A stretch of 34,038 bases of DNA. It comes from Lachnospiraceae bacterium (lineage in GTDB: Bacteria; Bacillota; Clostridia; Lachnospirales; Lachnospiraceae). The DNA is taken from contig JAAWIS010000037.1 in the NCBI GenBank assembly GCA_022796475.1, positions 1 through 34,038 on the forward strand, given 5' to 3'. The notes under the pieces are model-generated. The model saw nothing but the letters and a program-made list of their open reading frames with translations, was not told the origin of the DNA and did not search any database. Below are positions 2,576-19,146 of the stretch, piece by piece. Made by a program: the position numbers and the translations under genes. Positions within the stretch are counted from its first letter, which is position 1; the number at the start of each line of letters is the position of its first letter.

Positions 2576-3364
2576 ATGCACAGGAAACGCCAGAAAGAGA
2601 TGCTTTCTTACCTGTCTGAAGTGAAGTTTGCCAAAACAGAGCAACTGGCCGTGAAATTTTGTGTTTCAGCAGAAACAATACGCCGAGATCTGCTGGAATT
2701 GGAGGAGGCGGCTTTCGTGAAACGGGTAAGAGGCGGAGCTATATATACCAGCGTTCATCCCTATGAATTTCAGTCCCAATATTCCAATGGAGCCTCCTCA
2801 GCCGAAGTGCAGGCAATTGCTAAACTGACATGTGAAATGATCCGTGACGGAGAGGCTGTGGCAGTAAACAACAGTGCATTTGGCAGGGAACTGGCACGCT
2901 TTTTGTTGGAAACAAAAAAACAGCTAACAGTGGTGACCAACTCACCAAAATTGGCGATGATGCTGAATGAAACGAAAAGCCATGTGGTATATTTAACCTC
3001 CGGCCGTCTGCAGAACCGAAATAAAAGTGTAACAGGAAGTATGTGCATTGCCTGTCTGGGCAATTTTAAAGTGGATAAAGCCATTGTCAGTGTGGACGGA
3101 ATTTCCATTGCTGACGGAGCAATGGCCCATGACAGGGAAGAAGCTGACGTGATTCGCAAGATGCTGGAAATCAGCCACACAAAAATCGTATTATGCCCAT
3201 ATGAGGCATTTCATAAAACTGAATTTCACAAAGCTTGTCCGGCAAAACAGATAGATTATATTATTACAGACTGGAATATCTCATCAAAGGAAATAAAAAA
3301 TTGGTCTGAGATCCAGGTAAAAGTGCTGGCTGCCGCGGCTCCTCTGAAACATAAGCATGTCTGA
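2576..3364 (+). CDS. DeoR family transcriptional regulator (copy 1)
   Basis: A 262-residue regulator with the DeoR layout: N-terminal winged helix-turn-helix (residues 3-57, with VSAETIRRDLLELE and the wing motif VRGGAIY), then a sugar-isomerase-like effector domain (about 75-235). The effector domain normally binds a phosphorylated metabolite. Here the loop usually of the form N-x-G-x-T-T is NNSAFG (residues 98-103), so the phosphate contact looks lost, and the SKF motif near the end is EAF. The close paralogue at 13082 keeps both. The start at 2576 has AGGAGA eight bases upstream; the ATG five bases earlier is out of frame and soon stops. A strong terminator at 3488-3520 separates it from the operon it probably controls. 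Confidence 0.92.
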   Translation: MHRKRQKEMLSYLSEVKFAKTEQLAVKFCVSAETIRRDLLELEEAAFVKRVRGGAIYTSVHPYEFQSQYSNGASSAEVQAIAKLTCEMIRDGEAVAVNNSAFGRELARFLLETKKQLTVVTNSPKLAMMLNETKSHVVYLTSGRLQNRNKSVTGSMCIACLGNFKVDKAIVSVDGISIADGAMAHDREEADVIRKMLEISHTKIVLCPYEAFHKTEFHKACPAKQIDYIITDWNISSKEIKNWSEIQVKVLAAAAPLKHKHV

Positions 3365-3487
3365 ATACCGATTTTCATCTGCGGAAATGATTTTTAGACT
3401 GCTGGCAGAAGAGTAGAATTGTGGAAAGTAGTTGGAATTGAGGGTAAAATCACAAATTTTAGTTGTAAAAACATAACAAATCCCACA

Positions 3488-3520
3488 AAAAGCTGTCAAT
3501 TGGCAAAATTGACAGCTTTT
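3488..3520 (+). terminator. Perfect 14-bp hairpin terminator, overlapping the next promoter
   Basis: Arms AAAAGCTGTCAATT (3488-3501) and AATTGACAGCTTTT (3507-3520) are exact complements around a 5-base loop, and the 3' arm ends in a T run. It fits a rho-independent terminator for the deoR gene. Because the 3' arm contains the TTGACA of the downstream promoter, the palindrome could also be an operator. Confidence 0.75.
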
Positions 3521-3537
3521 ATTCGTTCTGTTAAGAT
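3509..3537 (+). promoter_or_regulatory. Candidate sigma-A promoter of the catabolic operon
   Basis: TTGACA (3509-3514), a 17-base spacer, then TAAGAT (3532-3537, 4 of 6 matches to TATAAT). The predicted start is about 55 bases upstream of the ATG at 3596. The -35 box lies inside the right arm of the 3488-3520 palindrome, so a protein bound there would block RNA polymerase. The next best -10 (TATATT, 3537-3542) has poor spacing. Confidence 0.5.
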
Positions 3538-3595: not shown

Positions 3596-4969
3596 ATGGA
3601 AGATTGCAAAAAATTAATTGTAAACGGCAGAGTTGTATTTCATGACGGACTGAGGGAAGTTTCGCTGTTAATTGAAAATGAAACAATAGCAGCAGTTTTA
3701 AAAAAGGGGATTTTTCCAGAGGAACCTTGTGAAGTGATTGATGCGGAAGGAAAAATTGTAATGGCTGGCATGATTGATACCCATAACCATATGTCAGATC
3801 CGGGGCCTTACAATTTTCGGGAAGATTGGTACTGCGGTTCCTGCAGTGCTGCTTCTGGCGGAATTACAACAATCTGCGATATGCCCCTTCCATCTGTGCC
3901 GGCAACCATTAATAAAGAGGGATTTCTGCAAAAGCAAAATACGGCTGCTGCCAGTTCTGTAGTAGATTTTGCTTTGTGGGGCGGTTTGATTCCTTCCAGT
4001 ATTCCTGATATGGAGGAAATGCACCGGCTTGGCTGTGTTGGGTTCAAGGGATTTATGTGTTTTGCAACCAAGGAATATCCGCGGATTACAGACGGATATC
4101 TGGCAGATGGGATGAAGCAGGCCGCCTTTTTTGACGGGCTGATTGCCCTTCATGCAGAAAATGCAGAAGCTGCTGATTTCGGATGCCGGCATTACTCAGA
4201 ATCCCATTGTGAAGATGAGGCAAAATTTGATCAGGCCAGGCCCTGGTGGACGGAGTATGATGCGATCCAGCGGGCGGTGCTGTTTGCGAAAATGACCAAA
4301 GCAAGGCTCCTGATTTGCCATACCACAATTGCTCAGGGAGCAGAATTTTTAAGAGATGCCAAAAAGGAAGGAACTCCAGTTTATGTGGAAACCTGTCCCC
4401 ATTATTTAATTTTTGATCATGATATTCTGCGGGAGAAAAAATCATTTGCCAAATGCACGCCGCCTTTCCGAAACAGGGAAAATGTGGAAAAGATGTGGGA
4501 GTACGTAAAGGACGGAACCATAGATGTGCTGGGATCGGATCACGGCCCCTTTACAGATGAGGAAAAAGTGATGCAGAAGGATTTCTGGAAGGAATACTGC
4601 GGGTTTGGATGCAATGATGTGATGCTGGCTGCAATGATTTCAGAAGGGATAGGAAAGCGGGGACTGTCCTGGAGCCGCCTCTCGGATCTGACTTCTGCAA
4701 ATGCAGCAAAAATACTTGGCCTGTATCCGAGAAAGGGAAGCCTGATGCCAGGGGCTGATGCCGATATTATTTTTATCGATCCGAAAGAGCGCTGGGTATA
4801 TGACGGCAGCAAATCATTTTCCAAGACGAAAAGTGTAAAAGGGCCTTACCAGGGAATGGAACTGACTGGCCGCGTAACCGATACCTTTGTCCGGGGAAGG
4901 CGGGTTTTTGGGGATGGAACCATATTTGCTGAGGCAGGGTACGGCAGACTGGTAAAACGGGAAGGATAA
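3596..4969 (+). CDS. allB: Allantoinase-like cyclic amidohydrolase
   Basis: The 457-residue product belongs to the allantoinase/dihydroorotase/hydantoinase group, binuclear metal enzymes that hydrolyse a cyclic amide bond. All six expected ligands are visible: H63 and H65 (DTHNH), carbamylated K151 (GFKGFMC), H186 (ALHAEN), H242 (ICHTTIA) and D315 (GSDHGPF). The segments CDMPLPSVPAT, VDFALWGGLIP and VETCPHYLIF resemble allantoinases more than hydantoinases. The reading frame is open from 3419, but the ATG at 3596 is the better start: GAGGA lies seven bases upstream and the residues added by the longer frame match nothing in the family. It is the first gene of the operon, followed by the PAL-like lyase. 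Hydantoinase or dihydropyrimidinase activity is the main alternative. Confidence 0.82.
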   Translation: MEDCKKLIVNGRVVFHDGLREVSLLIENETIAAVLKKGIFPEEPCEVIDAEGKIVMAGMIDTHNHMSDPGPYNFREDWYCGSCSAASGGITTICDMPLPSVPATINKEGFLQKQNTAAASSVVDFALWGGLIPSSIPDMEEMHRLGCVGFKGFMCFATKEYPRITDGYLADGMKQAAFFDGLIALHAENAEAADFGCRHYSESHCEDEAKFDQARPWWTEYDAIQRAVLFAKMTKARLLICHTTIAQGAEFLRDAKKEGTPVYVETCPHYLIFDHDILREKKSFAKCTPPFRNRENVEKMWEYVKDGTIDVLGSDHGPFTDEEKVMQKDFWKEYCGFGCNDVMLAAMISEGIGKRGLSWSRLSDLTSANAAKILGLYPRKGSLMPGADADIIFIDPKERWVYDGSKSFSKTKSVKGPYQGMELTGRVTDTFVRGRRVFGDGTIFAEAGYGRLVKREG

Positions 4970-5036
4970 GAAAAGCCTGGACAGGATGGCAGAAGAGGAA
5001 GGAAAAGGGGAATTTTATTTTGGAAAGGAGAAGCTT

Positions 5037-6062
5037 ATGAAACGGATAGAAGGATTTCCTGACAGGGAAAGGGCATCCCGATCCTTGTTTTGCCATAATG
5101 GGATTGCATATGAATTAATCCCGGAGTATGGAACGGTTCCCGATGAATTTGAATTTTCTATGTATTCTGGGGGCTGCTGTGATAAGGAAGAACAGTTGTT
5201 TTTAATGTGCCGTGACCCGGAGCATCCGGTAGTTGTGCTGGATGCAGGGGGAAATTATCTGAAAAGTTTTGGGAAGGGGTTGTTTCAGGAGGTGCACAGT
5301 ATTTGCGTTACGCCAGACGACACGCTGCTGTGTGTGGATACGGGGCTGCATGTGGTGCGGGAACTGACTAAGGAGGGGAAATGGATCCGGGATTTTGGAA
5401 ATTTAGGAGTCCCCAGTGACAGCGGATTTGAAAAAGACCGATGGAGAAGAATGCAGCGAAAAGGAAACCTGGTTCCTACAGATGTGGCATTTGATAAAGG
5501 CTGGTCCTTTTGGATGGGAGTAGAAAGCATCAAACGGGCTGCTCCTCCCTTTAACCGGCCAACAGGAGTCTGTGTTGGGCCGAAAGGAGATATTTTCGTA
5601 AGTGATGGATATGGAAACGCAGCCATCCATCGTTTTGCACCAGACGGCACACTGTTAAAAACATGGGGCGGGCCGGGAAATACCCCAGGCAAATTTTATG
5701 TCCCCCATAGCCTGTGGGCAGACAGAAAGAATCGTATTTGGGTAGGCGACCGGGAGGCAAACAGTATCCATGTATTTGATGAAAATGGAGAAGTGCTTGC
5801 ATACATGAATGAAAATCTGCTTCAGCCCACCGCTATTTGGGCAGATGATGATTTGATTTATATTGCAGAGCGGGGAGGCGGCCTTAGCATTTTCAATATG
5901 GATCTGGACATAGTGGCTCAGTTGGGATTTTATAATTCCCCTATCCGTGCTCATGGAATGTGCGGAAATAAAAAAGGAGAACTGTTCCTGATGCCGCTTT
6001 CAACGTATGACCGCCATTTTTTGATGAAGCTGGTGCCGATAACAAATTTATCAGCATCCTAA
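5037..6062 (+). CDS. PAL-like (peptidyl-alpha-hydroxyglycine amidating lyase) NHL beta-propeller
   Basis: A 341-residue NHL-repeat propeller without signal peptide, so probably cytosolic. The segment FNRPTGVCVGPKG... through DREANSIHVF (about 172-248) resembles the PAL domain of peptidylglycine amidating enzymes and its bacterial relatives. Candidate metal ligands are H87 (EVHSICV), H224 (VPHSLWA) and H306 (RAHGMCG), each at the start of a blade; candidate catalytic residues are Y192 (SDGYGN) and R239 (GDREAN). PAL splits a carbinolamide into an amide and glyoxylate. A cytosolic bacterial protein beside an allantoinase-like enzyme suggests a small-molecule substrate such as a ureidoglycolate-like compound; this is inference. 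The start at 5037 has AAAGGAG correctly spaced, unlike the upstream in-frame ATG at 4986. A generic NHL or SMP-30-like role is possible. Confidence 0.72.
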   Translation: MKRIEGFPDRERASRSLFCHNGIAYELIPEYGTVPDEFEFSMYSGGCCDKEEQLFLMCRDPEHPVVVLDAGGNYLKSFGKGLFQEVHSICVTPDDTLLCVDTGLHVVRELTKEGKWIRDFGNLGVPSDSGFEKDRWRRMQRKGNLVPTDVAFDKGWSFWMGVESIKRAAPPFNRPTGVCVGPKGDIFVSDGYGNAAIHRFAPDGTLLKTWGGPGNTPGKFYVPHSLWADRKNRIWVGDREANSIHVFDENGEVLAYMNENLLQPTAIWADDDLIYIAERGGGLSIFNMDLDIVAQLGFYNSPIRAHGMCGNKKGELFLMPLSTYDRHFLMKLVPITNLSAS

Positions 6063-6094
6063 ATTAATATTTATAAAAAGAAAGGAAGAGCATT

Positions 6095-7393
6095 ATGAAA
6101 AAAAGGAAAAAATTTTTAGCATTTTTGTTAGCAGGAGCAACCGTTTTTGCACTGGGGGCATGTTCCGGAAATACTTCTCCTCCTCCAACAAAGACAGAAA
6201 CGAATGTCCAGGATACAAAAGAGGAAACGAAAGATGCTCCGAAAGAAGAACAGGATACGGGAAATGCTTCAGGGAAGGCTGCAAGTGAGGACGGCCCAAT
6301 TATTATCGGTTTCCTTGGCTGGTCTTCCGGTGCAGATGCTATGTATGGCTTAGTTCCCCAGCATCTGCTGGAAACGTATTTTAAAAAAGTGAATGCAGAA
6401 GGCGGATGGCTGGGACGGGAAATCGATTTTCGTACCTATGATATATCCGGACTTGACGGAGATTTCTCAGAGGCAGTAAATGCAGCGAATAAGCTGATAC
6501 AGTCAGGAGCAGTGGCAATTCTTGGGCCAAGTAATTCCACCCAGGGGGCTGCAGTTGCAGAATTATGCAATCGTGCCGGTGTCCTTCACATCCCCTCCAG
6601 TGCCTCACAGCTTGCAACGGTAGATGATCAGGGGAATGTGCGTCCCTATACGTACCGCAGCGGCCCTGTTAACACAGATCAGGTTTCCACTATGGCAGCT
6701 TACGCCTATTATGAACTGAATAATCCGAAAGTGGCAGTTTTATACGAAACAACTCAAGTGGACACGGTAGATATGGCCAACGCATTTAAAGATACGTTTA
6801 CCGGCTACGGCGGGAACATTGTGGCAGAGGCTACGTATCAGATTAATGATGTGGAGTTTAGGGCCCAGCTTACCAGCTTAGCTCAGTCGGAACCGGATTA
6901 TTTGTTTATGCCGGTAATGGGGTATAAGGAAGCAGGATACGTGGCAAAGCAGCTATCGGAACTGGGCTTAAGCCATATTAAGCTGATTGGAAATTACGTA
7001 TACGATACAGAGGATCTGCTGACCCTTGCCGGGGCAGAACTGGAAGGATGTATTTTTGCTACAGACGGTGATATTGATGCGCCCCGGTTTGCCCAGATTA
7101 AGGAGGAGTATGAAGAATACCGCCAGGCCACAGGAATGTCCCTTCATATGCCTGGATTAAAAGCGTTCAATGAAGCAAAGATTTTGGAATATGCGATTTT
7201 AACCAGCGGCTCCACCAATCCGGACGAAATGTGCAAGGCACTGAATGAAACTTCTGGATTTGATATGATTACCAGTCCAAATAAGGGCTATGATCCGGAT
7301 ACCCATAATCTTCTTGGATTGGAATTTACTATTAAATCGGTAAAAGACGGATCCTTTGAAATACTTGGAACTTACGCCATCCCAACAGAATAA
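6095..7393 (+). CDS. Branched-chain-amino-acid-type ABC transporter, substrate-binding lipoprotein
   Basis: A 432-residue lipoprotein: basic N terminus, hydrophobic stretch, and lipobox LGAC with C23 as the lipidated residue, followed by a Thr/Glu/Lys-rich linker to about residue 65. The rest is a type I periplasmic-binding fold of the Peripla_BP_6/LivK group, with VAILGPSNSTQGAAVAELC (about 130-148) as the typical ligand-loop region and SSASQLATV after it. This family binds amino acids but also urea, short amides and other small ligands, so the ligand is open. In the cell envelope it would feed LivH/LivM. AAAGGAAGAG precedes the ATG. A strong hairpin follows the gene and may let it be made in excess of the permeases. 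Confidence 0.9.
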   Translation: MKKRKKFLAFLLAGATVFALGACSGNTSPPPTKTETNVQDTKEETKDAPKEEQDTGNASGKAASEDGPIIIGFLGWSSGADAMYGLVPQHLLETYFKKVNAEGGWLGREIDFRTYDISGLDGDFSEAVNAANKLIQSGAVAILGPSNSTQGAAVAELCNRAGVLHIPSSASQLATVDDQGNVRPYTYRSGPVNTDQVSTMAAYAYYELNNPKVAVLYETTQVDTVDMANAFKDTFTGYGGNIVAEATYQINDVEFRAQLTSLAQSEPDYLFMPVMGYKEAGYVAKQLSELGLSHIKLIGNYVYDTEDLLTLAGAELEGCIFATDGDIDAPRFAQIKEEYEEYRQATGMSLHMPGLKAFNEAKILEYAILTSGSTNPDEMCKALNETSGFDMITSPNKGYDPDTHNLLGLEFTIKSVKDGSFEILGTYAIPTE

Positions 7394-7403
7394 GCTAATG
7401 CCG

Positions 7404-7428
7404 GCCTGCAGGAAAGGCGCCTGCAGGC
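7404..7428 (+). promoter_or_regulatory. Intercistronic hairpin after the substrate-binding gene
   Basis: GCCTGCAGG (7404-7412) and CCTGCAGGC (7420-7428) are exact complements around a 7-base loop, with CCGG and CCGG just outside able to extend pairing. No U tract follows, so it is more likely an mRNA-stabilising or processing structure than a full terminator. It sits in the 75-base gap before livH. Confidence 0.6.
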
Positions 7429-7468
7429 GCGGTTTCTGCCGGGAACGGATAAAATTGGGGGTTAGCAA

Positions 7469-8341
7469 ATGATTGTTCAACAGTTGATAACAGGAATTTC
7501 CATCGGCAGTGTATACGCACTTCTTGCCGTGGGATATGCATTGGTGTTCAGTGTATTTAATTTTTCTAATTTTGGTTTTGGCCCGGTTATGATGCTGGGA
7601 GCTTTTGGGGCGCTGTTTGCCATTGAAAAAACCCATATGGCATTATTCCCGGCCATTCTGACAGCACTTGCAGTTGCAGGACTGATATCCCTTCTTATGG
7701 AGATCACCATATACCGGCCAATGCGGCAGAAAAAGGCCCTTAAGGTGTATTTGATGATAGCGGCGCTGGGGATTAATACATGTGTTCCGAATTTCTGTAT
7801 CCAGGTTTGGGGAGGTGCAGTCCGCCCATTCCCTTCAGACTGGGCAAAGGCGGTTATCCGCATAGGCGGGGTTGTAGTTCCCAGGGCAGATGTTTTAGCT
7901 GCAGTGTTATCGATTATCATGTTAGTGCTGCTGTGGTGTTTTCTGTTTCGGACGAAGCTTGGCCTTGGAATCCGGGCCAGTGCTTTTGATTCCAATACAG
8001 CCGGGTTAATGGGCATTAATGTTAACCGTGTGGCTGCCGTTATTTTTCTTCTGTCAGGTGCAACAGCAGGCCTTGCCGGATGCTTTTACGGAATGAAATA
8101 TTCTGTCTATCCCAATATGGGAGTAGTAGCTACAAAAGGATTTGTGTCGGCAACGGTAGGAGGCTTAGGAAGCCTGCCGGGGGCGGTTATTTCAGGACTG
8201 CTGTTAGGATTTTTAGAAACGATTATATCAGCCTACGTTTCTACCACGTATCGGGATTTGGTTGCATACGGTCTTTTGGTAATTGTTTTGATTATAAAAC
8301 CAAATGGCCTGTTAGGGCAGGGCGCTCATGACAAGCTATAG
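7469..8341 (+). CDS. livH: LivH-type ABC transporter permease
   Basis: The 290-residue membrane protein matches the LivH permease family (about eight hydrophobic segments). It opens with the family-typical QQLITGISIGSVYALLAVGYAL, has the FNFSNFGFGPVMMLGAF segment in place of the usual 'fahGe' motif, and carries the cytoplasmic coupling helix region LGIRASAFDSNTAGLMGINVNRV (about 167-190) that meets the ATPase. It pairs with the LivM homologue in the inner-membrane core. GGGGGTT lies upstream of the ATG. The stop is 14 bases before livM. The transported compound is not readable from the permease. Confidence 0.9.
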   Translation: MIVQQLITGISIGSVYALLAVGYALVFSVFNFSNFGFGPVMMLGAFGALFAIEKTHMALFPAILTALAVAGLISLLMEITIYRPMRQKKALKVYLMIAALGINTCVPNFCIQVWGGAVRPFPSDWAKAVIRIGGVVVPRADVLAAVLSIIMLVLLWCFLFRTKLGLGIRASAFDSNTAGLMGINVNRVAAVIFLLSGATAGLAGCFYGMKYSVYPNMGVVATKGFVSATVGGLGSLPGAVISGLLLGFLETIISAYVSTTYRDLVAYGLLVIVLIIKPNGLLGQGAHDKL

Positions 8342-8355
8342 GAAGGAGGATATAC

Positions 8356-9264
8356 ATGGGATACATTGAAGGGATTATGATCAGTGCCTGTATCAATATT
8401 GTCTGCGTGGCCGGCCTGGCGATTCTGACAGGCTATACAGGCCTTTTTTCCATGGGACATGCCTGCTTTTTATGTCTGGGTGCGTATACAGCGGGGATTC
8501 TCACTAAATTTTTCGGGGTTCCCTATCTGATAGCGCTGCTGGCAGGAGGGGGGACAGCAGCGCTGTTTAGCCTGGTAATCGGAATCCCAACATTAAGGGG
8601 GAAAATGTCAGCAGACTGCTTCACCATTGCTACCTTTGGATTTGGTGAGGCTACAAGGGTAGTGATGGCAAATATTAACCACCCTTACGTGGGAGGGGCT
8701 CTTGGACTGTCCGGCCTGAATACGGATACCACCTTGCCAAAGGCCATTGTGATTGCTGCCATTGCCGTATATTTTGCAAGAAATTATGCCAAGTCCCAGC
8801 ATGGGAAACTTGCTATCGCTGTCCGGGACCATGCGGATGCATCGGAACTGATTGGAGTGAATATTTTTCATGAGAAGCTGAAAGCACTTGCAATCAGTGC
8901 ATTTTTCTGCGGAGTAGGCGGAGGGATGATGGCTCATTACTATACGTATATTGTTCCCAATATTTTTGGAGGAACCATGTCAACCAATCTTTTGACAGCC
9001 GTGGTACTGGGAGGGGTATGTTCCGTTACCGGTCCGGTACTGGCAACTTCTGTTTTGACGGCGACTCCGGAGGTGCTTCGCTTTATGTCAAACTGGCGGC
9101 TTCCCATGTATGGCCTGGTACTGATTCTTACCATGAGAATCCGGCCAGAGGGACTCATGGGATACCGGGAACTGTCAGTCAGGCCCCTAATCCGGCGGCT
9201 GAGGAAGAAGGCAGGAAAACACAGCAGGGACAAGGAGGTGCAGCATGGCTCTTTTGGAGATTAA
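8356..9264 (+). CDS. livM: LivM-type ABC transporter permease
   Basis: A 302-residue multi-span permease of the LivM family, the second half of the membrane core. Family marks are the early ILTGYTGLFSMGHACFLCLGAY segment (about 22-43; the 'slGhaaf' motif) and the coupling helix IAVRDHADASELIGVNIFHEKLKALAISAFFCG (about 154-186). The C-terminal tail is basic (RPLIRRLRKKAGKHSRDKE) and ends inside the start of the next gene: the last 20 bases overlap livG, a sign of translational coupling. AGGAAGGAGG precedes the ATG at good spacing. Confidence 0.9.
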   Translation: MGYIEGIMISACINIVCVAGLAILTGYTGLFSMGHACFLCLGAYTAGILTKFFGVPYLIALLAGGGTAALFSLVIGIPTLRGKMSADCFTIATFGFGEATRVVMANINHPYVGGALGLSGLNTDTTLPKAIVIAAIAVYFARNYAKSQHGKLAIAVRDHADASELIGVNIFHEKLKALAISAFFCGVGGGMMAHYYTYIVPNIFGGTMSTNLLTAVVLGGVCSVTGPVLATSVLTATPEVLRFMSNWRLPMYGLVLILTMRIRPEGLMGYRELSVRPLIRRLRKKAGKHSRDKEVQHGSFGD

Positions 9265-10027
9265 GGAGTTATCCATTCATTTTGGAGGCGTAAAAGCAGT
9301 TCAGGAGGTTTCCTTTTCCGTTGAAAAGGGGGATTTTATCGGCCTGATCGGACCTAACGGCGCTGGGAAAACCACAGTATTTAACGCAGTAACCGGGGTG
9401 GTAGTGCCTACAAAGGGAACGATTTATTTTGACGGGCGCCAGTTAAACGGAATGCGTCCGGACAGAATATCCCATCTGGGGATTGCAAGAACTTTTCAGA
9501 ATATCCGTATTTACCCGAAGATGTCGGCCCTGGACAATGTAGCCATTGGCTTAGACAGCCATGCATCGTATCATACCGTTTCTGCTATGCTGGGCCTGCC
9601 CCACGTAAGGCGGCGGGATAAGGAGATACGTGAAACCTGCCTGGAATTTTTGGATCAGGTGGGGATTGTACAGTATAAAGATTCAGAAACCGGTTCTCTT
9701 CCCTATGGCATTCAGAGAAAAGTTGAGATTGCCAGGGCTTTGGCAACCAGGCCTAAGCTTTTGTTTTTAGATGAGCCGGCAGCAGGGATGAATACAGCAG
9801 AAAGCATGGAGCTTGTTTCCTTTTTACAGACGCTCCATGAAAATACCGGGATCGCCATAGTCCTGATTGAGCATCATCTGGAAGTCGTGATGGAAGTATG
9901 CAAGAAGATCCATGTGCTGAATTTAGGGCAGATGCTGGCCTCCGGCACGCCAAAAGAAATCCAGAATAATCAAGATGTGATTACGGCTTATCTGGGAGAA
10001 AGGAGGACCCCCCATGACGGAGAATAG
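9245..10027 (+). CDS. livG: LivG-type ABC transporter ATP-binding protein
   Basis: A 260-residue ATPase of the LivG type. Visible motifs are Walker A GPNGAGKT (about 36-43), the Q-loop FQNIRIYP, the signature LPYGIQRKVEIARAL, Walker B LLFLDEPAAGMN and the switch His in IEHH. The AAGMN motif after Walker B is characteristic of LivG rather than LivF. The signature reads PYGIQ where most LivG proteins have S-Y-G-Q-Q, a small change. It overlaps livM upstream by 20 bases and livF downstream by 14. AAGGAGG precedes the ATG. Confidence 0.92.
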   Translation: MALLEIKELSIHFGGVKAVQEVSFSVEKGDFIGLIGPNGAGKTTVFNAVTGVVVPTKGTIYFDGRQLNGMRPDRISHLGIARTFQNIRIYPKMSALDNVAIGLDSHASYHTVSAMLGLPHVRRRDKEIRETCLEFLDQVGIVQYKDSETGSLPYGIQRKVEIARALATRPKLLFLDEPAAGMNTAESMELVSFLQTLHENTGIAIVLIEHHLEVVMEVCKKIHVLNLGQMLASGTPKEIQNNQDVITAYLGERRTPHDGE

Positions 10028-10745
10028 CAGAGAAATTCTCTTATCTGTAAAGGATTTAAATGTGTTTTACGGAGGGATACAGGCCCTTCACGGAATTTCC
10101 CTGGAAATCAAAAGGGGGGAAATTGTATCGATTATCGGAGCCAACGGAGCCGGAAAATCCACGCTTTTAAAGACCATAGCCGGTGATAAGGAAATCGGCA
10201 GCGGAACCATAGAATGGAATGGGCAGCCGCTGCCCTCAAAGATCCATCAGTTTTCCCAGCAGGGGATCTGTCTGGTTCCGGAAGGAAGAAAGATTTTTGT
10301 CAATTTAACGGTTATCGATAACCTGCGGGTGGGAGCTTATGCGGAAAAGAAGAAATCAGTAATCCGGGAGCGGATGGAAGAGGTATTTGAACTGTTTCCC
10401 AGGCTGAAAGAGCGTTCCAAGCAGATGAGCGGCACCTTATCAGGAGGGGAGCAGCAAATGTTAGCAGTAGGAAGGGCCTTGATGGCGGCACCAAAACTTA
10501 TGATGCTGGACGAGCCTTCCCTTGGCTTGGCGCCTATTATCATTGATGAAATGTTTGAAAAATTTAAGCAGATTAATCAGGTGTATGGAACCACTATGCT
10601 GATTGTGGAGCAGAATGCCCAGTTAGCCCTGGAAACGGCAGATACAGGATATATTTTGAATCTGGGAACCATCCAAATGGAAGGAAAGGGAAAGGAACTG
10701 TTGAACAATCCTTATATTCAGAAGGCGTATTTAGGATTTCAGTAA
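10014..10745 (+). CDS. livF: LivF-type ABC transporter ATP-binding protein
   Basis: A 243-residue ATPase that pairs with LivG. It shows Walker A GANGAGKS (about 42-49), Q-loop region VPEGRKIFVNLTV (PEGR is typical of LivF), signature LSGGEQQMLAVGRAL, Walker B LMMLDEPSLGLAP (the SLGLAP form marks LivF) and switch region VEQN. The coding start overlaps the livG end by 14 bases and has AAAGGAGG inside livG. It ends 12 bases before the second amidohydrolase, so transporter and enzyme are almost certainly on one transcript. Confidence 0.93.
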   Translation: MTENSREILLSVKDLNVFYGGIQALHGISLEIKRGEIVSIIGANGAGKSTLLKTIAGDKEIGSGTIEWNGQPLPSKIHQFSQQGICLVPEGRKIFVNLTVIDNLRVGAYAEKKKSVIRERMEEVFELFPRLKERSKQMSGTLSGGEQQMLAVGRALMAAPKLMMLDEPSLGLAPIIIDEMFEKFKQINQVYGTTMLIVEQNAQLALETADTGYILNLGTIQMEGKGKELLNNPYIQKAYLGFQ

Positions 10746-10757
10746 AGGATGTGAAGG

Positions 10758-12185
10758 ATGATGCTGGATACTTTAATTTATGGCGGATATGTAATCACCA
10801 TGGAGGGAGCAGGAACCGGGGTAATCCCCTGTGGTGCGGTGGGGATTAAAGGCAATGAGATTGCAGTAGTGGGAACAGAGAAAGAAGTGTTAAAACAGTA
10901 TCAGGCCCATCGGTATCTTAATGCAGCAGGGAAAGCGGTGCTGCCTGGCTTTGTGAATGTGCATATGCATACAGGAGATGCAATTGTCCGGAGCTGCGCA
11001 CAAGATATTCCGGGAAAAATTTGGAGATTTAAAGGAATTCTGCCTCTGTTAGGGGTTGCAAGAGAGGAAGATTTTACAGCCGCATCCCAGTTAAATATCA
11101 TAGAGGCCATCCGCTCCGGGATTACCACTTTTGGCGATTATTATTATCCTATGGCAGAAATGGTAGAAAACCACATTAAACTGGGAACCAGGGCCGTGGT
11201 AAGCGGGATGATCAACGAGCTTCCTCCGGATGTTTCGGTGGTGGAGGTAGATGAGCTAATTCCTTTGGATTCTGCAGTAGGCGGGAAAAAGCTTTCGGAT
11301 AACCGGAAATTAGTAGAGCAGTATCATGAAAGCTTTGGGGGACGGATTACCTGCCGGTATGGCCCCCATTCGGCGGCCATGTGTTCAAAAGAAATGCTGG
11401 AAGAAATTAAGCATCAGGCAGATCTGGCGGATGTTGGGATTTTTACCCATCTGGTTCAGACCAGAGAGGAAATCACTCAGACCAGGCTTCGCACCGGACT
11501 AAGGCCAGTGGCGCTTCTTGATTCACTTGGATATTTAAACCGGAAGCTTTTGGCAGCCCATATGACGTATGCTTCCATGGAAGAAGTAAAACAGGTAGCC
11601 AAATCCGGCGCTTCCCTGGCCCTTTGCAGCGCCAGCATTTCCATTGTAAGGGGCGCTCTTCCTCCGGCACAGGAATTTTTAGCTTACGGGGGACGGGTAG
11701 GTTTGGGAACTGACCAGATTTGCAACGGGACCAATATGTTTGACGAGATGAAATATGCATCAATGATACACAAATATAAAAATCACGATGCAACCATGAT
11801 GCCTTCCTGGAAAATTTTAAGAATGGCAACCATTGAAGCGGCAGATGCTCTTGGCATGGCAGAAACAATCGGGTCGTTAAAAAAGGGGAAAAAGGCAGAT
11901 TTGATTGTTGTGGATTTGTCAGAACCCCATATGAATCCCATATATGATTCCCCTGTACGGAATCTGATTCCTAACTTAGTATATGCAGCAAGAGGCCATG
12001 AGGTGGAATCTGTGATCATTGACGGCAGATTTGTTATGGAAAACAGAAGGATCCTGACAGGAAAGGAAGAGGAAATTATAAAAAGGGTTCAGGAAGGGGC
12101 GGAAAGAATTGCAGGAAAGCTAAATGAACTTCCCTGGGCGAAAGAACTTCCGCTGGCGAAGTGGACAAGAGAGGGATATTATTAA
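10758..12185 (+). CDS. TrzA/AtzA-type amidohydrolase (deaminase/hydrolase of N-heterocycles)
   Basis: A 475-residue amidohydrolase of the subgroup with cytosine, guanine and S-adenosylhomocysteine deaminases and the triazine hydrolases. One metal site is visible: H69 and H71 (NVHMH), H231 (THLVQ), H268 (AAHMT) and D319 (GTDQ). In most deaminases the third His is followed by a catalytic Glu in an HxxE motif; here it is Q234 (HLVQ), so the reaction may not be a standard deamination. The tail KKGKKADLIVVDL is the usual beta-sandwich segment. AAAGGA lies eight bases before the first of two adjacent ATGs. The stop abuts the TTG start of the exporter. Exact substrate unknown. Confidence 0.85.
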   Translation: MMLDTLIYGGYVITMEGAGTGVIPCGAVGIKGNEIAVVGTEKEVLKQYQAHRYLNAAGKAVLPGFVNVHMHTGDAIVRSCAQDIPGKIWRFKGILPLLGVAREEDFTAASQLNIIEAIRSGITTFGDYYYPMAEMVENHIKLGTRAVVSGMINELPPDVSVVEVDELIPLDSAVGGKKLSDNRKLVEQYHESFGGRITCRYGPHSAAMCSKEMLEEIKHQADLADVGIFTHLVQTREEITQTRLRTGLRPVALLDSLGYLNRKLLAAHMTYASMEEVKQVAKSGASLALCSASISIVRGALPPAQEFLAYGGRVGLGTDQICNGTNMFDEMKYASMIHKYKNHDATMMPSWKILRMATIEAADALGMAETIGSLKKGKKADLIVVDLSEPHMNPIYDSPVRNLIPNLVYAARGHEVESVIIDGRFVMENRRILTGKEEEIIKRVQEGAERIAGKLNELPWAKELPLAKWTREGYY

Positions 12186-13061
12186 TTGAAGGAGAAACAG
12201 GCATACAGTTTTATTATAACAGCAGCAGTTTTGTGGGGATGCATTGGGATTTTTTACCGTAAGTTATCGTCCATGGGATTTACCCCTATGGAAATTGTTT
12301 TTATCCGTGTGACGGTGGCAGCGGCTGCTATGATCTGGTACTGCTTCATAACGGATCCCAGAAAACTGAATATTCGCCTTAAGGACAGCTTCTGGTTTTT
12401 AGGAACAGGAATTGGCAGTTTAGTATTTTTTAACTGGTGTTATTTTCATGCTATGGACAAAACCTCCCTGGCAACGGCAGCGCTGCTGTTATATACGGCC
12501 CCTGTCTTTGTACTGCTGATGTCCTGCCTGTTTTTAGGAGAGCAGATTACCAAAAAAAAGGCAGCAGCAATGGCAATTGTATTTGCAGGAAGCGCGCTGT
12601 CGTCCGGAATCCTGACGGAACAGGGAAATCCCCTGTCCTGGCCAGGGATTTTCTATGGCCTGGGGGCAGGATTCGGTTATGGGCTGTACAGTATATTTGG
12701 AACGGTTCTTCTTAGGAAGTATCAGGCGGAAACGGTAAGCACCTATACCTTTGTATTTGCAGCGGCTGGTGCAGCGCCTGCTTTTGTGTCTGGATTTCAA
12801 TGGAGCGGCCTGGCCTGCCTATCCAAGGCGCTGTGGCCTGCCCTTGGGATTGGCATCCTTAGCAGTATGCTTCCCTTTTTGCTGTATACCAGGGGGCTGA
12901 AGCTGGTTTCGGCAAGCAAAGCTTCCGGGGTTGCCGCCATCGAGCCGGTGGCTGCCGCAGCCGTCGGATTGGTTTTCTTTGAGGAAACCTTGGACGGAGG
13001 AAAGATTTTGGGAATTATCATGACGTTGTGGGGCATTTTCCTGCTGAAGTCTGCCGAATAA
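12186..13061 (+). CDS. EamA/DMT family membrane transporter
   Basis: The 291-residue protein has about ten hydrophobic spans in two related halves, as in the drug/metabolite transporter superfamily. Typical pieces are FIITAAVLWGCIGIFYRKL at the start, FFNWCYFHAMDKTSLATAALLLYTAPVFVLLMS in the first half (about 80-113) and the last-span motif SGVAAIEPVAAAAVGLVFFEETLDGGKILGI. Such proteins usually export metabolites or amino acids. The start is TTG, directly after the stop of the amidohydrolase; no ATG upstream of the first span exists, and GAGAGGGA lies about nine bases ahead. In this operon it may export the end product or excess substrate (inference). Confidence 0.87.
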   Translation: MKEKQAYSFIITAAVLWGCIGIFYRKLSSMGFTPMEIVFIRVTVAAAAMIWYCFITDPRKLNIRLKDSFWFLGTGIGSLVFFNWCYFHAMDKTSLATAALLLYTAPVFVLLMSCLFLGEQITKKKAAAMAIVFAGSALSSGILTEQGNPLSWPGIFYGLGAGFGYGLYSIFGTVLLRKYQAETVSTYTFVFAAAGAAPAFVSGFQWSGLACLSKALWPALGIGILSSMLPFLLYTRGLKLVSASKASGVAAIEPVAAAAVGLVFFEETLDGGKILGIIMTLWGIFLLKSAE

Positions 13062-13081
13062 TTGATGAAGGGATTCGTATT

Positions 13082-13891
13082 ATGTATAATGAGCGCCAAA
13101 AAGAATTAATTCGTTATCTGTCAGAAGTAAAATTTGCAAAAGCGGAACAGTTGGCGGAACGGTTCCAGGTTTCTTTGGAAACCATCCGCCGGGATTTAAT
13201 GGAGCTGGAAAAAGATTCTTCCATCAGGCGGATCCGGGGCGGTGCTGTGTACAGCAATATGCGGGCAAAGGAACTGGAATTTGCAAAAAAAATGGAGAAT
13301 AATCAAAAGGGGAAATATGCCATTGCAAATTTGGCTATGGAGTACATCAAAGACGGAGATGCCATTGCCATGAATAACGGCATAACAACACTGGCTTTGG
13401 CAAAATGTATGCAGTACAGCAGGAACCAGTTGACGATTGTTACCAATTCCCCGGATATTGCCTTGATTTTAAGTGATAACGAAAGCAATCAAGTGTTTTT
13501 AACAGCCGGTTATCTCCGCAAGCACAATAAAAGCCTGATTGGGAGTATGTGCAGTGAAAGCCTTGAATTTTTTAAAGTGGATAAGACGATTTTAAGCATA
13601 GACGGGATTTCCATCCAGGACGGTGTTACGGAGTTTAATACAGAGGAAGCCTCTATTCTCCGAAAGATGCTGGAGATTGGCCATACCAAGATGATTCTTT
13701 GTGAATTCAGCAAGTTCAGCGAGGTGGCTTTCAATAAAATCTGCCCTGCCAGAGGGATTGACTACGTGTTTACTGACTGGAACGTGCCGGCAAAGGATGT
13801 GAAAGCCTGGAGCGACATCGGAGTCAAAATCTGCTTTTCTCCAAAGCGGAAAGATTCAGGCTGCGGATTACAGGGCGCCAGCGAACCGTAA
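13082..13891 (+). CDS. DeoR family transcriptional regulator (copy 2)
   Basis: A 269-residue DeoR regulator, close in sequence along its whole length to the one at 2576 (shared stretches YLSEVKFAK, ETIRRDL, TVVTNSP/TIVTNSP, GSMC, FKVDK, DGISI, RKMLEI, HTK, CPA, IDY, TDWN). It keeps the effector-loop NNGITT (98-103) and SKF, so it should still sense a phosphorylated or similar ligand. The frame is open from 13028, but the ATG at 13082 has GATGAAGGGA eight bases upstream and aligns with the paralogue's start. It lies 20 bases after the exporter gene, as the last gene of the operon, which suggests autoregulation. No clear terminator follows; only a weak GGAGA/TCTCC hairpin at 13911-13925. Confidence 0.92.
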   Translation: MYNERQKELIRYLSEVKFAKAEQLAERFQVSLETIRRDLMELEKDSSIRRIRGGAVYSNMRAKELEFAKKMENNQKGKYAIANLAMEYIKDGDAIAMNNGITTLALAKCMQYSRNQLTIVTNSPDIALILSDNESNQVFLTAGYLRKHNKSLIGSMCSESLEFFKVDKTILSIDGISIQDGVTEFNTEEASILRKMLEIGHTKMILCEFSKFSEVAFNKICPARGIDYVFTDWNVPAKDVKAWSDIGVKICFSPKRKDSGCGLQGASEP

Positions 13892-15278: not shown

Positions 15279-15400
15279 GCTTTATAGGAAATTGCGTCTT
15301 ATAAAGCAAAAACCCTCCGGGGGATGCGCACTTCGCGCTTTAAGGAAACTGTCTGCTGGCGCAGACGCGCTCCGGCGCGCCAGTCCGGCAAACCGGAATC
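15275..15400 (+). repeat. Structured dispersed repeat, copy A
   Basis: This is the first of three related copies (others at 18496 and 19021). In order it has a TTTATAGG/TATAAA hairpin, here extended to 12 exact pairs by TTTTGC/GCAAAA (15275-15286 with 15300-15311); the block AACCCTCCGGG; a GCGC-ACTTC-GCGC hairpin; a GTCTG-CTGGC-GCAGAC-type hairpin; CGCGCTCCGGCGCG; and a decayed final AGTCCGG/CCGGA hairpin. The 309-base gap between the Met-rich ORF and metN is mostly this element, plus AGGGTT/AACCCT at about 15414-15430. Confidence 0.85.
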
Positions 15401-15522
15401 TTTGTTCTTTCACAGGGTTTTTGGAACCCTTCATGAAAGCGCCTTCCTGGTGATGGAGGAATGGCCATTGATCCGCAAGTGGAAGGGCAGCCCCGTTTCA
15501 TAATAGTTTAGGAGAGAAAACC

Positions 15523-18495: not shown

Positions 18496-18622
18496 TTTAT
18501 AGGAAATTGCGTCCTATAAAGCAAAAACCCTCCGGGGAATGCGCACTTCGCGCCTAAGGAAACTGTCTGCTGACGCAGACGCGCTCCGGCGAGGGAGTCC
18601 GGCAAGCCGGACTCTTTGTTCT
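18496..18622 (+). repeat. Structured dispersed repeat, copy B
   Basis: Same order of elements as copies A and C: TTTATAGG...CCTATAAA, AACCCTCCGGG, GCGC-ACTTC-GCGC, GTCTG...CAGAC, GCGCTCCGGCG, and a final perfect AGTCCGG-CAAG... hairpin (18596-18613) followed by CTTTGTTCT. Differences from copy C fall mostly in loops. Bases 18623-18734, after it, show only a 19-codon frame without support. Confidence 0.85.
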
Positions 18623-19020: not shown

Positions 19021-19146
19021 TTTATAGGAACTTGCGCCCTATAAAGCAAAAACCCTCCGGGAGATGCGCACTTCGCGCCTAAGGAAACTGTCTGCTGGCG
19101 CAGACGCGCTCCGGCGCGTGAGTCCGGCAGGCCGGACTCTTTTTTA
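19021..19146 (+). repeat. Structured dispersed repeat, copy C, ending in a terminator
   Basis: The best-preserved copy. It shares the TTTATAGG/CCTATAAA hairpin, the AACCCTCCGGG block, GCGC-ACTTC-GCGC, GTCTG-CTGGC-GCAGAC and CGCGCTCCGGCGCG with copies A and B. Its last hairpin (AGTCCGGC and GCCGGACT, 19121-19138) is followed by CTCTTTTTT, a strong intrinsic terminator, here likely serving ymxH. Confidence 0.88.

Follow-up and report, generated by a model that had tools for sequence, protein, structure and literature searches.

Organization of the gene cluster

The sequence analysed here (hereafter, the window) is a whole contig of 34,038 nucleotides (JAAWIS010000037.1, assembly GCA_022796475.1) from a gut-type Lachnospiraceae bacterium whose genome, of 3.77 Mb in 170 contigs, is 95.6% complete. 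It carries ten genes, all on one strand and spanning positions 3596-13891 (open reading frame (ORF) coordinates of the window), for a cyclic amidohydrolase, a six-bladed propeller resembling PAL, an importer, a second amidohydrolase of the TRZ/ATZ type, an EamA-family transporter and a DeoR-family regulator (Table 1). Families were assigned with NCBIfam models and with Pfam on the cluster proteins, and the assignments made in a preliminary description of the locus were correct. The coordinates also bear out the tight spacing described there: the intergenic gaps, in gene order, are of 16, 32, 75, 14, -20, -14, 12, 0 and 20 bases, and the two overlaps (livM/livG and livG/livF) both lie within the importer. 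Two start sites differ from those of the listed ORFs; orthologues of the propeller begin at the ATG at 5037, not at 4986, and the ATG of the downstream deoR-type gene is internal to an ORF listed at 13028-13891.

The importer is a complete system of the Liv/HAAT type, with a Peripla_BP_6 substrate-binding protein, two Liv-type permeases and two ATPases (NCBIfam on all five proteins; Pfam on the binding protein and the first permease only). Its identity as a urea transporter was rejected, as the scores against the UrtB, UrtC, UrtD and UrtE models (121.7, 63.1, 201.3 and 213.5 bits) were all below the respective cut-offs (250.3, 296.2, 304.1 and 285.8 bits).

Table 1. Features of the cluster and of its upstream region, in window coordinates
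Feature	Position	Strand	Basis
Second DeoR-family regulator, paralogue of the downstream one, directly upstream of the cluster	2576-3364	+	NCBIfam, Pfam
Perfect 14-bp inverted repeat, 5-nt spacer; probable operator	3488-3520		Conservation, genome search, shuffles
Promoter, TTGACA-17-TAAGAT, TG before the second hexamer	3509-3537	+	Conserved in 6 clusters
Cyclic amidohydrolase (hydantoinase/allantoinase/dihydroorotase class)	3596-4969	+	TIGR03178, 375.9 bits, cut-off 357.85; invariant residues
PAL-like six-bladed NHL propeller	4986-6062 (likely start 5037)	+	Family and structure comparison
Peripla_BP_6 substrate-binding protein of the importer	6095-7393	+	Pfam/NCBIfam
LivH/UrtB-like permease	7469-8341	+	NCBIfam, Pfam
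LivM/UrtC-like permease	8356-9264	+	NCBIfam
LivG-like ATPase	9245-10027	+	NCBIfam
LivF-like ATPase	10014-10745	+	NCBIfam
TRZ/ATZ-type amidohydrolase, Gln234 replacing the usual Glu	10758-12185	+	NCBIfam, Pfam, alignment
EamA-family transporter, accessory	12186-13061	+	Pfam; 2 of 8 clusters
DeoR-family regulator, probable repressor of the unit	13082-13891	+	Pfam; cluster comparison

The cluster is conserved around an amidohydrolase and a PAL-like propeller

Genome contigs were searched with the propeller as the query, a scan that reaches close relatives only; seven loci were retrieved and all were inspected, so that with the window eight clusters could be compared. They are L008 (Clostridiales bacterium 1_7_47_FAA), L009 ([Clostridium] asparagiforme), L010 (genome G305, of the same genus as the window), L011 (G307), L012 (G306), L013 ([Clostridium] citroniae) and L014, of which L011, L012 and L014 come from metagenome-assembled genomes. 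Since PAL was the query its presence is given by construction, and the independent count is that of the cyclic amidohydrolase, found in the same cluster at all seven retrieved loci (8/8 with the window) and 63-79% identical to that of the window. The Liv importer and the TRZ/ATZ enzyme are each present at six of the seven loci (seven of the eight clusters). A deoR-type gene is found in seven clusters, and the sequence of the eighth, L011, begins at the amidohydrolase and is hence uninformative on this point. Gene order differs in L011 and L012, where the PAL gene follows the TRZ gene; elsewhere it precedes the importer. L014 has neither Liv nor TRZ genes; a BMP-type ABC importer (a Bmp binding protein, two permeases and one ATPase) lies between the amidohydrolase and the PAL genes, and the amidohydrolase, PAL, the DeoR regulator and the putative operator (see below) are kept. 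This exchange of importer, together with the lack of TRZ, points to the amidohydrolase and PAL as the core of the system. A tree of 13 amidohydrolases places L014 next to the window and L010 (support 95/98); the PAL tree does not settle its placement.

The EamA transporter, which the preliminary description had made the exporter of the system, is found in the window and in L010 only (2/8), so that export is not core to the system and EamA was rejected in that role. A putative nickel-pincer-dependent ornithine cyclodeaminase, encoded next to TRZ in L008 (17386-18483) and L013 (17195-18352), was rejected as a pathway partner on similar grounds: it is linked in two of the eight clusters, has unlinked copies in five of the eight operon-bearing genomes and is absent from the genome of the window.

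The distribution of the locus is patchy. Within the genus, four of 11 genomes carry operon-type PAL (at least 72% identity). Across the family, a PAL of any kind was found at E <= 1e-20 in 6 of 299 genomes; across the phylum, at E <= 1e-40, it was found in one genome of 398, that of the window itself. Such patchiness might be expected of unconnected enzymes brought next to an amino-acid importer by chance or by horizontal transfer, but the gene set is common to the eight clusters despite the reordering in L011 and L012 and the change of importer in L014, and the promoter block is present in six; we regard a chance assembly as extremely unlikely. Synteny limited to this strain had been set beforehand as a refutation; instead, the gene set is kept in eight clusters, and its conservation supports the coordinated import-and-degrade unit first proposed. 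Judged by these comparisons, the cluster is a real, conserved, catabolic operon of the Lachnospiraceae.

A conserved promoter and a putative operator precede the operon

Upstream of the amidohydrolase gene, the TTGACA hexamer of the promoter falls inside the right arm of a perfect inverted repeat. This block is conserved in six clusters (window, L008, L009, L010, L013 and L014); the arms, searched as 12-nt stretches, are perfect in the window, L009, L010 and L014, whereas those of L008 and L013 carry a single mismatch. Allowing up to three mismatches, exactly one site per genome was found in six of the eight unique operon-bearing genomes. A reversed-pattern control gave no site in any of the eight genomes, and the operator pattern did not occur in 100 shuffles of the window. 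A scan of the window for promoters gave 25 sites against a shuffle mean of 19.2 (standard deviation 4.7), which is not significant, and the site in question is one of six at the top score (10 of 12 matches). Because the consensus scan is near the shuffle mean, the evidence for this promoter is its conservation across clusters.

The overlap of the repeat with the -35 box is consistent with a site for a repressor. We therefore predict that the inverted repeat is probably an operator and, from its location and conservation, that the downstream DeoR protein is the probable repressor of the unit; the operon is probably regulated as a single unit. A pattern scan also classes the repeat as terminator-like, and it could serve instead as the terminator of the upstream deoR-type gene, a reading that concerns regulation only. 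However, both arms and the downstream hexamer are kept letter by letter, at fixed spacing, in six clusters; in L010 and L014 the first ORF listed upstream (of 150 residues or more, or with a blast match) lies on the opposite strand; and just four of the 14 pairs in the stem are G-C. Given the conservation of the arms and the context in L010 and L014, we judge a terminator to be distinctly unlikely.

Neither the upstream deoR-type gene nor the inverted repeat with its promoter (together 3488-3537) figured in the preliminary description. The two DeoR proteins are 49.6% identical over 250 residues. The sequence TAGTTGTAAAA is found at 2523-2533, upstream of the first deoR-type gene, and at 3460-3470, upstream of the amidohydrolase promoter, with near-copies upstream of the amidohydrolase gene in L009, L010 and L014. 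With one mismatch allowed it has three matches in the window, a number equalled by two of 100 shuffles; it is possibly a second regulatory site.

The cyclic amidohydrolase is only marginally assigned as an allantoinase

Residues H63, H65, K151, H186, H242 and D315, which presumably have a metal role, are invariant in the amidohydrolases of all eight clusters. The enzyme passes the allantoinase (AllB) model TIGR03178 narrowly (Table 1), and scores far under the cut-offs of the other allantoinase models, NF004839 and NF005960. Three further members from the clusters score 380-394 bits, and a proteobacterial AllB (L057) scores 524. The model is also passed by all four relatives from clusters of another kind (L040-L043; 368-381 bits), so that the allantoinase label does not discriminate and is weak. 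Thus, of the allantoinase-like enzyme proposed initially, the score above the cut-off stands and a firm allantoinase call does not. The L040-L043 enzymes are 54-58% identical to the cyclic amidohydrolase of the cluster, with matches in five of 299 genomes of the family, one of which is that of the window. They belong to a different recurrent cluster, formed by an amidohydrolase, a sugar- or BMP-type importer, a BNR_2-type and an epimerase-type protein and an FCD-type regulator (Pfam was run on single representatives, with BNR_2, epimerase and FCD on L041, Peripla_BP_4 on L042 and Bmp on L043; the rest was assigned by eye). We know of no pathway for a cluster of this type.

Could the operon serve in the standard use of allantoin, with an allantoinase opening allantoin, unlinked genes following, and the propeller replacing AllA as the ureidoglycolate lyase? 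The score over the TIGR03178 cut-off speaks for this, and PAL-type chemistry would suit ureidoglycolate. Loci for allantoin degradation (allB, allC, allA/allD) share with the cluster an amidohydrolase of the AllB class and the predicted products urea and glyoxylate; the cluster, however, is without allC and allA and has a Liv importer and a PAL propeller instead. The cut-off is just passed (376 against 358 bits, with AllB of L057 at 524), and the AllC/carbamoylase class (TIGR01879) has no match in the genome of the window or in G305; by that search, the M20 peptidase encoded at 855-2258 is not of this type. AllA (PF04115) had no match in five of the eight operon-bearing genomes, and the urease alpha subunit none in seven, in both cases including that of the window (G305 is also among the five without AllA); a single partial match to urease alpha, of 23 bits, was obtained in G703. 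The statement that the standard allantoate enzymes are not visible thus extends, for AllC, AllA and urease alpha, to the whole genome of the window. A search for allantoicase gave no match in the control genomes and carries no weight on the allantoate route. Overall, we consider standard allantoin use unlikely.

ErtD, the hydantoin-5-propionate amidohydrolase of ergothioneine utilisation, is of the same class, but the cluster enzyme scores 266 bits where the cut-off is 650, and this identity was rejected; other Ert models were not among the matches listed (at most 25) for the ten proteins.

The propeller has a PAL-like fold and the TRZ/ATZ enzyme an unusual active site

In structure comparison the propeller superposes on the PAL domain of PAM (3fvz), a six-bladed NHL propeller, with 25% identity over 275 residues. 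Residues H104, Y209, H241, R256 and H323 are found in 16 of 16 aligned propellers and R76 in 14; in an alignment of eight of these with three plasmid relatives, R76 is found in 11 of 11. By motif, this His/Tyr/Arg set may correspond to the Zn-binding and catalytic residues of rat PAL. The comparison supports the PAL-like fold first proposed, although other NHL propellers fit as well. PAL (EC 4.3.2.5) itself cleaves peptidyl-alpha-hydroxyglycine; unlike PAM, the cluster propeller is bacterial, its unit encodes no monooxygenase partner, and no peptide is predicted as its substrate. All eight operon propellers, that of the window included, have Gly directly behind the last conserved His, a position at which PAL has Asp. 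A second, distant PAL-like propeller is encoded in the genome of the window and in G306 (L025:9806-10903 and L027:3290-4465), with neighbours that, judged by eye, resemble genes for a tripartite tricarboxylate transporter, an aldolase of the HpcH/HpaI type and a dehydrogenase.

The metal ligands of the TRZ/ATZ enzyme (H69, H71, H231, H268 and D319) are invariant in all seven members from the clusters. Its best matches in the PDB, with AtzA at E 5.6e-46, belong to the TRZ/ATZ aminohydrolases (AtzA, MTA/SAH deaminase, TrzN), with which it shares the His/His/His/His/Asp metal site, but the Glu of the HxxE motif is replaced by Gln. The motif reads HLVQ or HLSQ, Gln234 is invariant (7/7) and the catalytic Glu was not found in any of the seven. 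This Glu is kept in four TRZ-like paralogues of the genome of the window (22-29% identity; eight of the nine other PF01979 matches were viewed, and four that aligned poorly, at E 1e-5 or worse, were excluded from the count). The nearest plasmid relative (L056, 39% identity) shares the HxxQ motif; it is an amidohydrolase of a cyanobacterial polyketide cluster, a biosynthetic context unlike that of the catabolic operon. The enzyme is CyrG/CyrH-like, and its locus resembles a cylindrospermopsin cluster. For CyrG and CyrH, a role in forming the uracil ring has been discussed but lacks biochemical proof (PMC3252866).

A proposed route and its alternatives

Sequential ring opening and carbinolamide cleavage is the simplest chemistry that uses both core enzymes, and for this reason we tentatively propose, as a possibility that falls short of a probable assignment, that the cluster converts a hydantoin-like compound, by ring opening, into an N-carbamoyl-alpha-hydroxy acid, which is then cleaved in a PAL-type reaction, with import by the Liv-type system and, probably, control by DeoR. 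The importer would take up a small polar cyclic ureide or imide. The TRZ/ATZ enzyme may turn some precursors into the ring substrate of the amidohydrolase, by hydrolysing off an amino substituent or by some related reaction, which would not operate in all clusters, as L014 lacks the enzyme. The amidohydrolase would then open the hydantoin-like ring to give an N-carbamoyl acid with an alpha-hydroxyl group, the plainest example being the conversion of 5-hydroxyhydantoin to ureidoglycolate. Finally, the propeller would split the carbinolamide C-N bond to yield urea, or else a substituted urea or an amide, together with glyoxylate or a different 2-oxo acid, that is, a reaction of the ureidoglycolate lyase type carried out by a PAL fold.

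Several observations weigh against this proposal. In the structure comparison 3fvz ranks seventh by Z, and non-lyase NHL domains score equally well; with the plasmid relatives included, R256 is found in 10 of 11 propellers and is not universal. TIGR01879 is matched above its cut-off, elsewhere in the genome, in the other six of the eight unique operon-bearing genomes, and matches to the AllA family (PF04115) of 24-33 bits (cut-off 23) were obtained in three (G701-G703). No operator site was found, with up to three mismatches, in two of the eight (G306 and G307). Lastly, relatives of both enzymes keep other company. Four (L020-L023) of eight distant PAL relatives (32-56% identity) lie in sugar-acid-like loci, next to genes for lactonase, YhcH, Amidohydro_2, aldolase- and dehydrogenase-like proteins and sugar- or dipeptide-type importers, and with no amidohydrolase of the cluster's class nearby (both partly by eye); within the 20 kb inspected around each of the L040-L043 amidohydrolases there are importers of the sugar or BMP type and genes of the BNR_2, epimerase and FCD types, and neither PAL nor TRZ was found.

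Because some relatives of the two core enzymes lie in sugar-type clusters, a ureide or hydantoin substrate is a suggestion drawn from the enzyme families. The same observations allow a carbohydrate-type pathway, in which the amidohydrolase would open a sugar-derived lactam or other ring and the propeller would act on a hemiacetal, a lactone or a glycosyl-amide, its resemblance to PAL being one of fold and metal site only. BMP- and sugar-type importers do occur in related clusters, and DeoR-family regulators, which the clusters have, usually sense sugar phosphates. Yet the genes common to the clusters include neither a kinase, an aldolase, a lactonase nor a sugar dehydrogenase, an RraA-like gene adjoins L013 only, and the window's importer belongs to the amino acid/amide (Liv) type. 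It is because several relatives of both enzymes are found in sugar-type loci that we hold the ureide or hydantoin route as no more than tentative and see a role in carbohydrate use as doubtful but deserving of weight.

A more specific version of the hydantoin route can also be considered, in which the substrates would be cyclic guanidino adducts derived from arginine (glycation hydroimidazolones and their relatives) or hydantoins from oxidised pyrimidines; the Gln-type TRZ/ATZ enzyme would free an amino acid or amine from the ring, the amidohydrolase would open the (hydroxy)hydantoin so formed and the PAL-fold protein would act as a ureido-acid lyase. This would fit the Liv-type importer, EamA in two clusters, and the ornithine cyclodeaminase next to TRZ in L008 and L013, although the last fit is weakened by the copies elsewhere in five genomes and by the absence of the gene from that of the window. 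We offer it as a speculation that is very unlikely to be correct in this form.

A dispersed repeat elsewhere in the window

Outside the operon, a 125-nt dispersed repeat is found at 15281-15406, 18496-18620 and 19021-19145. Of its 53 matches in the genome of the window, about 45 are close to full length, with identities of 86-100%, and some copies lie head-to-tail in arrays with a period of about 125-128 nt. RNA folding of the repeat beats that of shuffles (z -3.67; one of 200 shuffles as good), and Rfam gave no match in the window at the gathering score.

Implications

Compared by sequence, the operon is a new combination of known families; a literature search of partial coverage found no description of the gene set or of a PAL-fold ureidoglycolate lyase. 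The proposed route can be tested directly in the cultured strains [Clostridium] asparagiforme DSM 15981 and [Clostridium] citroniae WAL-17108. If it is correct, Enterocloster-type bacteria would have their own route, independent of AllC, AllA and urease, by which a cyclic nitrogen compound yields urea and a 2-oxo acid, and an enzyme with the PAL fold, known for peptide amidation, would have acquired a catabolic role.

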